From: Hahella sp. CCB-MM4
GTDB lineage: Bacteria; Pseudomonadota; Gammaproteobacteria; Pseudomonadales; Oleiphilaceae
Length of the DNA: 64,000 bases
Reading direction: 5' to 3'
Assembly: GCF_002260525.1 (NCBI RefSeq)
Contig: NZ_MRYI01000006.1
Location: forward strand, 62,001-126,000
Positions 11,628-51,214 of the stretch are shown here, piece by piece (position 1 is the stretch's first letter; every line of letters begins with the position of its first letter). Under the pieces are notes generated by a model. The model did no database searches, was not told the origin of the DNA, and saw only the letters and a program-made list of their open reading frames with translations. A program made the translations under genes and the position numbers.

Positions 11628-12365
11628 TCAGTCGCCAGTCCAATCCGTGAGACGCGATCTTAGTCGTATCGTCGCCTGGGAATGTATCTGGCTGACCCTG
11701 GATTCACTGACGGACAATACCTGACCAATTTCCTTCAGATTCAGTTCTTCGTCATAGTAAAGAGACAGCACTAGTTTTTCGCGCTCCGGCAAGGCATCAA
11801 TAGCGGCTGTCAGCTTTTGCAAAAAGGCTTCATTTTCAATGCCGGCCAGCGGATTACGATTATGAGGATCTTCCCCGAGAGGGTCCTGATCACTGTCAAA
11901 TCCCATCTCATCCAGGCTGAACAAACGACCTGCAGAAGCATCCCTGACCGAACTGTGATATTGCTCCAGAGTTATTCCCAGGGCTTCAGCAACCTCATGA
12001 TCCTGAGCATCACGCCCGGTGCGGGCTTCAATTTCATGTATGGCTTTGGCAATGTTCCGGGCATTCCTGTGTACCGATCTTGGAATCCAGTCTCCTTTGC
12101 GGATCTCATCCATCATCGAGCCACGTATCCGGATACCCGCATAGGTTTCGAAAGAAGCGCCTTTGGTGGCGTCGTACTTTTGAGCGGCTTCCAATAATCC
12201 GATCATGCCGGACTGTATCAGGTCTTCCACCTGAACACTTGCAGGTAATCTTGCAATCAGGTGATGAGCGATACGCTTAACCAGAGGTGCGTATTGCTGG
12301 ACTAACAGGTCTGCGCGTTTACCACCGGCATCACTGTAGATCATATAAGATTTCGCCACGTGCAT
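11628..12365 (-). CDS. fliA: Flagellar sigma factor FliA (sigma-28)
   Basis: A 245-residue sigma-70-family factor without region 1. Region 2 has VEDLIQSGMIGLLEA and FETYAGIRIRGSMMDEIRKGDWIPRS, and region 4 ends with LKEIGQVLSVSESRVSQIHSQA. FliA directs late flagellar genes such as flagellin and chemotaxis genes, held back by FlgM until the hook is complete. The DUF5610 gene at 49-50.4 kb has a matching promoter. ATG 12365 gives MHVAKSY; ATG 12344 is an alternative. It lies 83 bases after fleN and is followed by a 206-base gap before cheY. Confidence 0.96.
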   Translation of the reverse strand: MHVAKSYMIYSDAGGKRADLLVQQYAPLVKRIAHHLIARLPASVQVEDLIQSGMIGLLEAAQKYDATKGASFETYAGIRIRGSMMDEIRKGDWIPRSVHRNARNIAKAIHEIEARTGRDAQDHEVAEALGITLEQYHSSVRDASAGRLFSLDEMGFDSDQDPLGEDPHNRNPLAGIENEAFLQKLTAAIDALPEREKLVLSLYYDEELNLKEIGQVLSVSESRVSQIHSQATIRLRSRLTDWTGD

Positions 12366-24043: not shown

Positions 24044-25387
24044 CTAGACGTAATAGTCCACTAGCTGATCCAACTCCAGCGTCTGCTCCACCGTTCTGGC
24101 GCTCTCTTCTCCGGCCTGGCCATCAGCCAGGGAGATATCCGAACCGCCCTCACTCTGTCCCTCACCTGACTCGGAACCGAATTGCTGCCCCTGTTGGCTG
24201 GACACATCAAACTGGGAAAGCTCGATCCCCTGATCCGCCAACATTTCACGCAATCGGTGAACCGTACCTTCCATCAAATCTCTGGTAACCGCATGTTGAC
24301 TGTGGACCTGGATATGCGCCTGATCTTTGTGGACCTGGATTTTCATTTCAATTGGGCCAAGTTCCGCCGGATTCAAATGAATCTTTGCACTCTGGATATT
24401 TTGACTGACCATCCAGGTGACTTTATTGGCCATTCCATCTTTCCATTCCGGATGCTGGATGGATTGCTGTATCGTGGTGATGTAAGGACCGGATGCCGCA
24501 GCATCGTTTCTGCCGACACTCATCTGCACGGCCATCTGGCCTGACACCGCACTCTGTGCCGGAAGCTTGATTTGAGCCCCATCAGCCAGCTTTGAGAGAA
24601 CAGCATCGAGCCCCTGCTGATCCGTAGCTTTGCTCTTTCCTTCTGTTGCACCTTCAGCCGACACCTTCCCAATTAAATCTTTCAGAATTTGTGAAACTTC
24701 GGCACCCTTACCGTTATCTGAAGCTTTTGCAGCATCTTTGGAATCACCGGAACCTTTCTGATTCTGCAAAACAGACTGCAGCACTTTAGCAAGCTCTGCT
24801 CTGGGATCATCTCCCTCTGTCAAACCGTCAATCTTTCCTTCACCTTTGGCGGAGGTCGAGGCGGCAAGACCGGCAATAAATTCAATCAGCTCATCTTCTG
24901 TCGGAGCCGCAGCGTCAGTCGTCGCTTGCTCAGCTGAACTGCCTGTCGCTGATATGTCTACTATCTGCTGTACATTTATCTGTTGTACATTGTCGGCATC
25001 CGTTTGCTCCAGATCCTGCTTTGAGTCGGTCTCATGGCCATCTTTCCCTTCAGCAGAACCGGCTTCCGTACTTGCCTTTTTAACCGGCAAAGAATCTCCG
25101 CTATCGGAGACCTCACTGGAACTTGCTTCATCATTACGGGAGACCTCGCGCTTATCGTCCTGACGATCAGCGTGGTTCCGGGAAGAAGCCTTACTGCTGG
25201 CCTGGGAACTTTTTTCCGAGGCACGATCAGCCGTATCATTCACCCGGTCGTTATAGACTTCCGAGAACGATTTATTCTTTCCTGTCATGGAGTTAAGTGG
25301 ATCAGGAGCTGTTGACGATTTCTTGCTGGCTCCCGACTTCGGAGCACTGACCAGATCCAGAATAGACGTAGATGCAGGTGCAGCCAT
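24044..25387 (-). CDS. fliK: Flagellar hook-length control protein FliK
   Basis: A 447-residue protein. The N-terminal 300 residues are Ser/Asp/Glu/Lys-rich and disordered, acting in this family as the molecular ruler. The C-terminal domain is recognisable by NIQSAKIHLNPAELGPIEMK, IQVHSQHAVTRDLMEG and LREMLADQGIELSQFDVS. FliK measures hook length and triggers the FlhB switch. It stands behind a sigma-54 promoter at 25463-25479, so it probably starts the fliK-L-M-N-O-P-Q-R-flhB transcript. Confidence 0.94.
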   Translation of the reverse strand: MAAPASTSILDLVSAPKSGASKKSSTAPDPLNSMTGKNKSFSEVYNDRVNDTADRASEKSSQASSKASSRNHADRQDDKREVSRNDEASSSEVSDSGDSLPVKKASTEAGSAEGKDGHETDSKQDLEQTDADNVQQINVQQIVDISATGSSAEQATTDAAAPTEDELIEFIAGLAASTSAKGEGKIDGLTEGDDPRAELAKVLQSVLQNQKGSGDSKDAAKASDNGKGAEVSQILKDLIGKVSAEGATEGKSKATDQQGLDAVLSKLADGAQIKLPAQSAVSGQMAVQMSVGRNDAAASGPYITTIQQSIQHPEWKDGMANKVTWMVSQNIQSAKIHLNPAELGPIEMKIQVHKDQAHIQVHSQHAVTRDLMEGTVHRLREMLADQGIELSQFDVSSQQGQQFGSESGEGQSEGGSDISLADGQAGEESARTVEQTLELDQLVDYYV

Positions 25388-49014: not shown

Positions 49015-50373
49015 TCAGGCAGACAATTGCTGAAGCAGTTGGCGGCTAAAATCAAGAAACTGATCATTTTGCAGCTGCTCAGACTCTCCATTAAATTCCA
49101 CCAGACGCTCCATTATCTGCTCAATCAGGCTGGCAGGCTCATCAAACCGTGCCGCCTGGGATAACGCATCTGCATACTTGGGCACTTGATCTGCCAAGGG
49201 CTGGAACTGATTAGCCGAATGACGCCCTCCGGAACGATACGCAGCCTCAACTTCTTCGTATTGCATGCTGCTCATGGATACTGAATAGCTGGCAATTTCA
49301 GACATATCCACGTCCATCTCCAGCGCAGCAGCAAAAGCATCATTGAAATCGCCGGCAAAGAATGATCCGGCAATGTCTTCAACCTGAGCCAACATCTCTT
49401 CCAGGGCAGTCAGCTCATCCTGATCCAATTCCCCGTCTACCAGCAATTGATAACCACTGGTTTCGAAACTGCTTTGCGATACGCCCAAGTACTGATTCCC
49501 GCCGCGAGCCGCATATAAGGCCGAAGTCTGACTTCCTGATGCCGCCCCCACATAAATGGTCACCTTATCTCCATCACGTGTGGTCACGGTCAAACCCAAA
49601 TCATTTGACGTCAATTGGGTACGGTTATATGCAAAAGCTTCAGCCAGTCTGGAGAGACGAGGCCTGTCCTGCTCGGAGTTACTACTCACAGCTCCCGACG
49701 CATCTCCGTCGTCGCTATCAGCAACCACTTCTCCCTCATCATTAGCTTGAGAGTTTTGCACAACTTCGTCTTCTGGTGCGCTTTCTGTCTGGGCAGGATC
49801 AACAATTACCGCGCCATCTTCAACGCCTTGCGGATCCCCTGGCAGATATTTCTCCCGCAGATCAGTCAAACCGGTCTGGATCAGGTCGTACCCTTCGTCA
49901 ATATCAGATTGGAGTTCATCGGTCATCAGGCCCCGAGTCTCAATCTCTTCGATTGCTTCAGCATAACCTGTACTTACTCCTTCAGTTGCCTGCGCAAACA
50001 GGTCCTCCAGCTCTTCAGGCGTCGCTCCATTCTCAGCCTCCTGAGCAATACGCTGCTCAACAAATCCCAATACCTTGTTGGCAACATCCTGAGGGGAAGG
50101 CAATGCAGACTGATAAGGATTTTGTGCGGGCTGCTGAAAAGCCGAAAGTCGCCCGGATAATCTGGTTTCAAATACCTGAGCACTGAACTGACGCTGCCCT
50201 CCAGCCGATCCTTGAGAGGAAAAGCTCATCTCCACACTGGAATATTCGACCGAAAGAGAATACTGGCTAACGGATACCGACTGACCATTGGAAGCAGGAT
50301 GATGGGAATGATGTGCGTTTCCCCGCCCAAACCCTGCAAACAATTGATTTAACGACCCGATACCATGAAACAT
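49015..50373 (-). CDS. DUF5610 protein, probably FliA-dependent
   Basis: A 452-residue protein without signal peptide or membrane segment. The N-terminal 80 residues are Ser/Gln-rich (SVSQYSLSVEYSSVEMSFSS). Residues about 90-170 match DUF5610: SPQDVANKVLGFVEQRIAQ, ATPEELEDLFAQATEGVSTG. An acidic linker (about 180-235) leads to a second domain that is not recognised, with YLGVSQSSFETSGYQLLVDG. No function is known to me. A near-perfect FliA promoter lies 29-55 bases before the ATG and GGGAGG seven bases before it, so it belongs with late flagellar genes. A terminator follows. Confidence 0.75.
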   Translation of the reverse strand: MFHGIGSLNQLFAGFGRGNAHHSHHPASNGQSVSVSQYSLSVEYSSVEMSFSSQGSAGGQRQFSAQVFETRLSGRLSAFQQPAQNPYQSALPSPQDVANKVLGFVEQRIAQEAENGATPEELEDLFAQATEGVSTGYAEAIEEIETRGLMTDELQSDIDEGYDLIQTGLTDLREKYLPGDPQGVEDGAVIVDPAQTESAPEDEVVQNSQANDEGEVVADSDDGDASGAVSSNSEQDRPRLSRLAEAFAYNRTQLTSNDLGLTVTTRDGDKVTIYVGAASGSQTSALYAARGGNQYLGVSQSSFETSGYQLLVDGELDQDELTALEEMLAQVEDIAGSFFAGDFNDAFAAALEMDVDMSEIASYSVSMSSMQYEEVEAAYRSGGRHSANQFQPLADQVPKYADALSQAARFDEPASLIEQIMERLVEFNGESEQLQNDQFLDFSRQLLQQLSA

Positions 50374-50401
50374 AATCCGTCCTCCCGAAGGTGTTAGTCA
50401 T

Positions 50402-50428
50402 ATATCGGCAGCCCAATCCAATCCTTTA
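50402..50428 (-). promoter_or_regulatory. FliA (sigma-28) promoter of DUF5610 gene
   Basis: On the minus strand TAAAGGAT is separated by exactly 11 bases from GCCGATAT. The enteric consensus is TAAAGTTT-N11-GCCGATAA. Transcription would start about 20 bases before the ATG. Confidence 0.8.
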
Positions 50429-50602: not shown

Positions 50603-51214
50603 ATGACGCCAGCACAGATCAAACAATTCCCGGAAGACCCCTCGACCCTCAAGTCAGCACCGCTATGGCGGCGATTTGCAGCGATGTTTTACGATGGCAT
50701 ATTGCTGATTGCGGTTTGGTTTGTTACCACCATGGTCTACCTTCTTCTCAAAGGCATGGTGATCGGGCTGGAGGCAATGAAAGCACTTGCCGAAAGTGAA
50801 AAAGGTCCGGGGGACCCACTTCTGACTATTTGCCTTTTCCTGGCAACATTTTACTTTTTCGCCTATTTTTGGACACGTATAGGACAAACTCTTGGCATGC
50901 AGGTCTGGCGCATCAGAGTTCAGAATCCCAACGGCTTTAAGATCAACTGGAGCCAAAGCCTTCTGCGATTCTTTACCGCCATGGCTTCAGCAGCCTGCCT
51001 GGGTCTGGGATATATTTGGAAGCTCTGGGACAAAGAAAAACTGACCTGGCCGGACCGCGCATCGATGACACGGGTCTACTATGTTCCTCCCGAGAAAAAA
51101 CAAATTCCGCCGGAGAAGAAACAACCGACTTCACCGGAAAATAAGCAACGCGAATTGGAAAATCGCAAAAAAGGAAACCAATCCCGAAATGGAAAAAAGA
51201 GGAACTCCAAGTGA
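50603..51214 (+). CDS. RDD-family membrane protein
   Basis: A 203-residue protein. RDD-type features are seen: LWRRFAAMFYDGILLIAVWF at residues 19-38, then two more membrane segments and GMQVWRIRVQNPNGFKINW. Three to four helices are predicted. The last 40 residues are highly charged and carry repeated PPEKKQ units, again a short tandem duplication at a gene end. The function of RDD proteins is mostly unknown; some are linked to ion exchange. ATG 50603 is the first start after the intergenic region and has a weak site. Confidence 0.8.
   Translation: MTPAQIKQFPEDPSTLKSAPLWRRFAAMFYDGILLIAVWFVTTMVYLLLKGMVIGLEAMKALAESEKGPGDPLLTICLFLATFYFFAYFWTRIGQTLGMQVWRIRVQNPNGFKINWSQSLLRFFTAMASAACLGLGYIWKLWDKEKLTWPDRASMTRVYYVPPEKKQIPPEKKQPTSPENKQRELENRKKGNQSRNGKKRNSK

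Follow-up and report, generated by a model that had tools for sequence, protein, structure and literature searches.

The window, by which we mean the whole 64-kb stretch of DNA that was analysed, carries on its minus strand a gene for a protein with a DUF5610 domain, preceded by a candidate promoter of the FliA type. The gene and its upstream region comprise the following features:

50421..50428, minus strand: FliA (sigma-28) -35 element TAAAGGAT, read from the sequence; the corresponding box is kept in orthologues
50402..50409, minus strand: FliA -10 element GCCGATAT, 11-base spacer to the -35 element, read from the sequence; conserved in orthologues
50381..50386, minus strand: ribosome-binding site GGGAGG, 7 bases ahead of the ATG, read from the sequence
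49015..50373, minus strand: DUF5610 gene, 452 aa, without cysteine, tryptophan, or a hydrophobic signal or membrane segment (open reading frame, PF18433, composition)
49858..50139, minus strand: DUF5610 domain, residues 79-172, with three predicted helices within 94-176 (hmmscan; AlphaFold2 block with pLDDT 88-97)
49645..49836, minus strand: disordered acidic linker, residues 180-243 (pLDDT mostly <50)
49234..49638, minus strand: C-terminal beta-rich domain, residues 246-380 (AlphaFold2, Pfam scan); in other genomes also detected away from Pfam DUF5610 matches
49021..49215, minus strand: C-terminal helices, residues 387-451, of lower confidence (AlphaFold2)

Read along the minus strand from 50428 to 50402, the promoter consists of TAAAGGAT, an 11-base spacer and GCCGATAT, and is followed by 28 bases and the ATG at 50373. 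An earlier note had described this promoter; the exact spacer and the GGGAGG seven bases ahead of the ATG are both confirmed, and its distance of 29 bases to the ATG is right if counted to the A, since 28 bases lie between. The FliA consensus TAAAGTTT-N11-GCCGATAA is in the literature, in a paper that also tested expression in P. fluorescens MFE01 (PMC7286023). The promoter of the DUF5610 gene fits a FliA pattern of this kind and stands at a fitting distance from the start.

Downstream of the gene, on the same strand, are alaS-like and then lysC-like open reading frames, and an RDD-family gene diverges on the other side. The listed start of this divergent membrane protein (window 50604-51214, plus strand) is 50435, which is probably too early, and the ATG at 50604 is likelier. 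The nearest open reading frame of the flagellar cluster (FleQ-like, end 39494) lies about 9.5 kb away, in agreement with the earlier placement of the gene about 10 kb from the cluster and next to alaS. Names of flagellar-cluster genes in the window are our own reading, FliA excepted: fliA of this genome was identified with TIGR02479 (E 6.1e-84) at G000:C118:73649-74305, within the window's open reading frame 11628-12365. The DUF5610 assignment itself is clear (PF18433, residues 79-172, E 2.4e-23, 83.3 bits vs. a curated cut-off of 26.4), and an NCBIfam scan of the 452-aa protein gave no match at E <= 1. In the literature library that we searched, no paper contained "DUF5610" or "PF18433", and none was found that could be linked to the gene.

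The architecture proposed earlier, with two domains and an acidic linker, agrees with an AlphaFold2 model built on 63 orthologues, in which the DUF5610 helices are followed by the linker and the C-terminal domain. The sequence contains no Sec signal. Residues 1-89 were mostly of low confidence. The C-terminal domain was modelled confidently as three strands of about 20 residues, two helices and a fourth long strand. A Pfam scan of this domain in 63 members yielded no convincing model (best E 0.0029). Several candidate relatives were considered and rejected. The best fold matches to the PDB, both for the full model (E 2.4e-3) and for the C-terminal domain (E 1.5e-2), were judged not believable, as were three viral fold matches at or under 1e-3 with a query TM of 0.13-0.19. 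The PDB sequence matches of the profile were four designed proteins, a YscD-like Pfam match (E 0.0062) was below cut-off, and a DUF1844 match seen in 30 of the 63 members (best E 9.2e-5) was reduced to 2/63 when the C-terminal part was scanned alone. A single-sequence query of viral contigs found no relative. A profile of the C-terminal domain detected 15 proteins in 14 of the 274 genomes of our class sample. Seven of these (L173-L179) were apart from Pfam DUF5610 matches, six of them in genomes without a long DUF5610 protein, so that the family may be better defined by its C-terminal domain than by DUF5610. Upstream of these seven genes, six have a FliA-like match of at least 10/13, but a long stretch was searched and some starts are uncertain; convincing FliA motifs (11-12/13) precede only L173, L175 and L178.

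How specific is the promoter pattern? Without mismatches, TAAAG-N14-GCCGATA occurs at a single site in the 64-kb window, which is the DUF5610 promoter, and at three sites in the whole 6.66-Mb genome. The second of these (L001) precedes motY (MotY_N E 8.4e-48, Pfam), and at the third (L002) a downstream gene was looked for and not found. With up to two mismatches, the window contains seven sites vs. 3.56 expected. Allowing one mismatch, the whole genome contains 57 sites vs. 62 for the reversed-pattern control, and a further count gave 6 vs. 13, so that the motif is not enriched over the reversed control in this genome. Counts of motif and reversed control in four genomes of relatives and Pseudomonas were 17/5, 8/5, 4/2 and 5/5, with many sites inside open frames. 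Because the reversed control is equally frequent genome-wide at one mismatch, a single promoter match is weak evidence.

We then compared the upstream regions of orthologues, as the earlier note had proposed. The sample of the window's family comprised 61 genomes with 42 DUF5610 matches, for which 30 loci were fetched and 12 were left out. Near the start, 28 of the 30 loci score at least 10/13 against TAAAG-N14-GCCGATAA (L030 being counted by its upstream match), and the short paralogues L009 and L010 show no match of at least 10/13. The class sample of 274 genomes has DUF5610 in 17, and 16 new loci were examined, among which 11 score at least 10/13, four score 9 and one is unscored. Long forms in other families reach 13/13 (L047) and 12/13 (L044 and L051). 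The motif recurs in a set of 80 named loci, where Pseudomonas presents the form T(A/C)AAGTTT-N11-GCCG(T/C)(C/T)AA about 31 bases ahead of the ATG, with a -10 box that differs from GCCGATAA at two positions. The motif is thus kept not only in the window's family but also in Pseudomonas and other families of gammaproteobacteria. Its absence from orthologues, which the earlier note had named as evidence against its reading, was not observed.

For a non-redundant count, we defined 62 representatives (75% identity) from 125 genes of 126 loci, L046 being left out. The scoring was made independent of the motif by fixing each window on the stop-delimited frame. Under this procedure, 36 of the 47 long forms score at least 10/13 and 28 at least 11/13, vs. 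139 and 27 of 2480 windows drawn at random from these loci. On the opposite strand of the same regions, two of all 62 representatives reach 10/13 and none reaches 11/13. Short forms are weaker as a group (8/15 and 4/15 at the two thresholds). When starts were picked after the motif, the long forms rose to 41/47 and 33/47, and the reversed motif reached at least 10 in 0/62. A start-aligned comparison of 37 non-redundant Pseudomonas-type upstream regions, whose starts were partly chosen after the motif (44 of 54 starts being the first in-frame ATG), showed information peaks at -58..-51 (TAAAGTTT) and -40..-31 (GGCCGTCAAC), a poorly conserved spacer and little information beyond -61; a third block at -25..-22 and the ribosome-binding region are conserved too. 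Re-anchoring 40 sequences on the first in-frame ATG left the pattern in place but weaker, with 0.49 and 0.41 bits in the boxes vs. 0.19 in the spacer and 0.12 at -100..-61, but also 0.40 at -25..-22. It is this conservation in orthologues, rather than the single match, that settles the reality of the promoter, as far as sequence comparison can speak to it. It also supports the earlier proposal that the gene would be a late (class IV) flagellar or motility gene.

Several Marinobacter carry a DUF5610 form of about 180 aa, mostly with a FliA-like motif. We noted 14 short Marinobacter-type forms of this length in which the C-terminal domain is absent (L034, L036-L038, L064, L091, L094, L105, L112, L118, L125, L127, L130 and L131), and all 14 score at least 10/13.

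The same type of motif precedes known late genes, as identified by Pfam. It stands ahead of flagellin both in the window's genome and in its relatives, while a congeneric genome has it upstream of flgM and motY and a Pseudomonas genome upstream of flgM. Among 30 fetched flagellins, five of the MALGINTN type score 12, four of the MPQIINTN type from the window's genus score 11 and the other 21 score 7-9. Upstream of four MPQ(I/V)INTN flagellins without the FliA motif (L141, L147, L149 and L159), TGGCAC occurs together with CTCGCTT or TTCGCTT, an arrangement that resembles a sigma-54 site. An exact FliA-like motif was also observed at G031:C1:4978980-4979006 (L229), upstream of an open reading frame about 13 kb from flagellin genes; it reads like a CBS-domain nucleotidyltransferase and is possibly involved in flagellin modification.

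The distribution of the gene follows that of flagella in part. In the family sample, DUF5610 was found in 36 and flagellin in 57 of the 61 genomes. All 36 DUF5610 genomes carry flagellin, and the four genomes without flagellin are all without DUF5610 (one-sided p 0.024, a value that ignores relatedness). In the class sample, E-values at the level of FliA, read from the best E-value per genome, were found in 14 of 17 DUF5610 genomes vs. 143 of 257 others (p 0.025, likewise ignoring relatedness). The three DUF5610 genomes without a match at this level include two with short forms, one of them in a 100%-complete genome, and one that is 82% complete and whose long form has a 13/13 motif. On the other hand, the gene is present in only 36 of the 57 family genomes that have flagellin, and one Pseudomonas genus has it in 23 of 149 genomes. 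Since many flagellated genomes are without it, the DUF5610 gene is not needed for flagella as such.

The earlier note had also stated that nothing but its promoter marks the gene as flagellar. This is true in the window and does not hold elsewhere, where a CheV-type gene or flgM lies near in 27 of the 80 named loci. In 18 of them, all Pseudomonas or unclassified gammaproteobacterial records, a CheV-type gene of the same orientation follows at a distance of 313-973 nt; the two that were scanned both have CheW and receiver domains. In nine other named Pseudomonas loci, flgM lies 1.7-3.4 kb downstream; one of these, L083, also has flgA, a FlgN-like open reading frame and CheV. The CheV-type gene that follows DUF5610 (L075:6444-7325 and its equivalents in 17 other loci) is not the CheV that neighbours flgA/flgM, with which it shares about 40% identity. 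When the 200 bases ahead of the start used were scored, 17 of the 18 CheV-type genes had no motif of at least 10/13 (all 7-9). The gap being too wide, a single DUF5610-CheV operon is not presumed. The remaining 53 named loci have neither a CheV-type gene nor flgM within the flank (at most 5 kb); in one of them (L101) we read the neighbours as relA, mazG and DUF2058. In the window's family, 20 of the 30 loci that were fetched have alaS near the gene. We also compared 20 regions of 5-20 kb with the proteins of the window, a query set that does not include flgM, flgN or flgA. None of the flagellar structural or export proteins in the set was found there. The regions do contain a FleQ/FleR-type activator at a distance of about 3 kb (L180), proteins resembling Soj/ParA (L183) and CheW (L191), and response regulators (L184, L187 and L193). 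The putative promoter is therefore kept in several neighbourhoods, some of which are late flagellar or chemotaxis loci in their own right.

Our results suggest with good confidence that the DUF5610 gene is a FliA-dependent late (class IV) flagellar or chemotaxis gene. Class IV genes are expressed once the hook-basal body has been completed and FlgM exported. RNA polymerase with FliA (sigma-28) would transcribe the DUF5610 gene at this same point, and the protein would serve the filament, motor or chemotaxis stage. That the motif is a chance match or the site of another sigma factor is very improbable: although the window's genome has no more matches to the pattern than to its reversed control, both boxes are conserved in differing neighbourhoods, with a freer spacer, and they match the motifs of flgM, motY and flagellin. 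It is also unlikely that the gene is controlled by FliA without a role in swimming or steering, as a surface, attachment or signalling protein co-regulated with motility. The patchy presence among flagellated genomes and the position away from flagellar genes in the window would fit such a role, but no adhesin, enzyme or signalling domain was found, and the CheV or flgM neighbours in about a third of the named loci (27/80) point the other way. With a late-flagellar promoter that is present and kept in relatives, the gene very probably belongs to the machinery of swimming or steering and has been overlooked there.

The molecular role of the protein is harder to assign. We tentatively favour a cytoplasmic late motility or chemotaxis partner, which would use the DUF5610 helices and the C-terminal sheet for binding; it is the finding of CheV neighbours that puts a cytoplasmic role slightly ahead of export. 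A reading that is nearly as likely keeps the same FliA control but has the protein leave through the flagellar type III export gate as an accessory substrate; the unstructured polar N-terminus would be the export signal and the two domains would act outside the cytoplasm, like FlgM or FliK. Consistent with export, there is no Sec-type signal or membrane segment, the N-terminus is unstructured and polar as judged from composition and AlphaFold2 (residues 1-89 being the mostly low-confidence part), and flgM and FlgN-like genes lie near the DUF5610 gene in nine loci. Residues 2-26 are poor in charge (0.118 vs. 0.178 in neighbour open reading frames) and rich in S/T/N/Q (0.373 vs. 0.216), an unusual polarity that fits export no less than a cytoplasmic role. 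The representatives contain five cysteines in 22,045 residues, and 45 of 47 long forms are cysteine-free vs. 11 of 67 neighbouring genes; the other two may be N-terminal misreadings. This depletion is shared with FliK (28/29 cysteine-free) and flagellin (25/26), but cytoplasmic CheZ is cysteine-free in 26/29, so that the composition does not discriminate between the two roles and was dropped as a mark of export. Homology to FliK was likewise rejected, as there is no Flg_hook domain and no similarity by profile comparison. A more specific version, in which the proteins form a previously unrecognised late-flagellar family with a C-terminal fold unseen in solved structures, exported as accessories of the filament, cap or surface in flagella of the Marinobacter, Pseudomonas and other gammaproteobacterial types, is less likely than not.

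What is known of late flagellar genes comes mostly from flagellar clusters in model species. The DUF5610 gene lies outside the cluster in the window and is absent from 126 of 149 genomes of one Pseudomonas genus, and may therefore have gone unnoticed. If confirmed, it would add a conserved component to the FliA regulon and would provide a first functional context for DUF5610, along with a new domain to solve.

Among known systems, Pfam DUF5610 (PF18433) matches the protein above its curated cut-off at residues 79-172, but the model covers the helical domain only, and the conserved C-terminal domain falls outside any convincing model. The export substrate FliK (Flg_hook, PF02120) is similar in length, acidity, lack of cysteine and polar N-terminus; it differs in profile, and a separate FliK is encoded in the window at 24044-25387. 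We also observed a second Flg_hook match on another contig of this genome (G000:C71:141509-141748), and two or more such FliK-like matches, a few below cut-off, in 55 of the 57 Flg_hook-positive family genomes. CheZ (PF04344), a cytoplasmic late protein, is likewise acidic and mostly cysteine-free, although Pfam reveals no sequence relation. Unlike the FliA class IV genes of polar flagellates (flgM, motY, flagellin and CheV), the DUF5610 gene encodes a protein without a known flagellar or chemotaxis domain, is patchy in flagellated genomes and sits beside alaS in the window. It nevertheless shares with them the promoter boxes and the spacer before the start, occurs only in flagellin-bearing genomes of the family sample, and has flgM or a CheV-type gene nearby in 27 of the 80 named loci.
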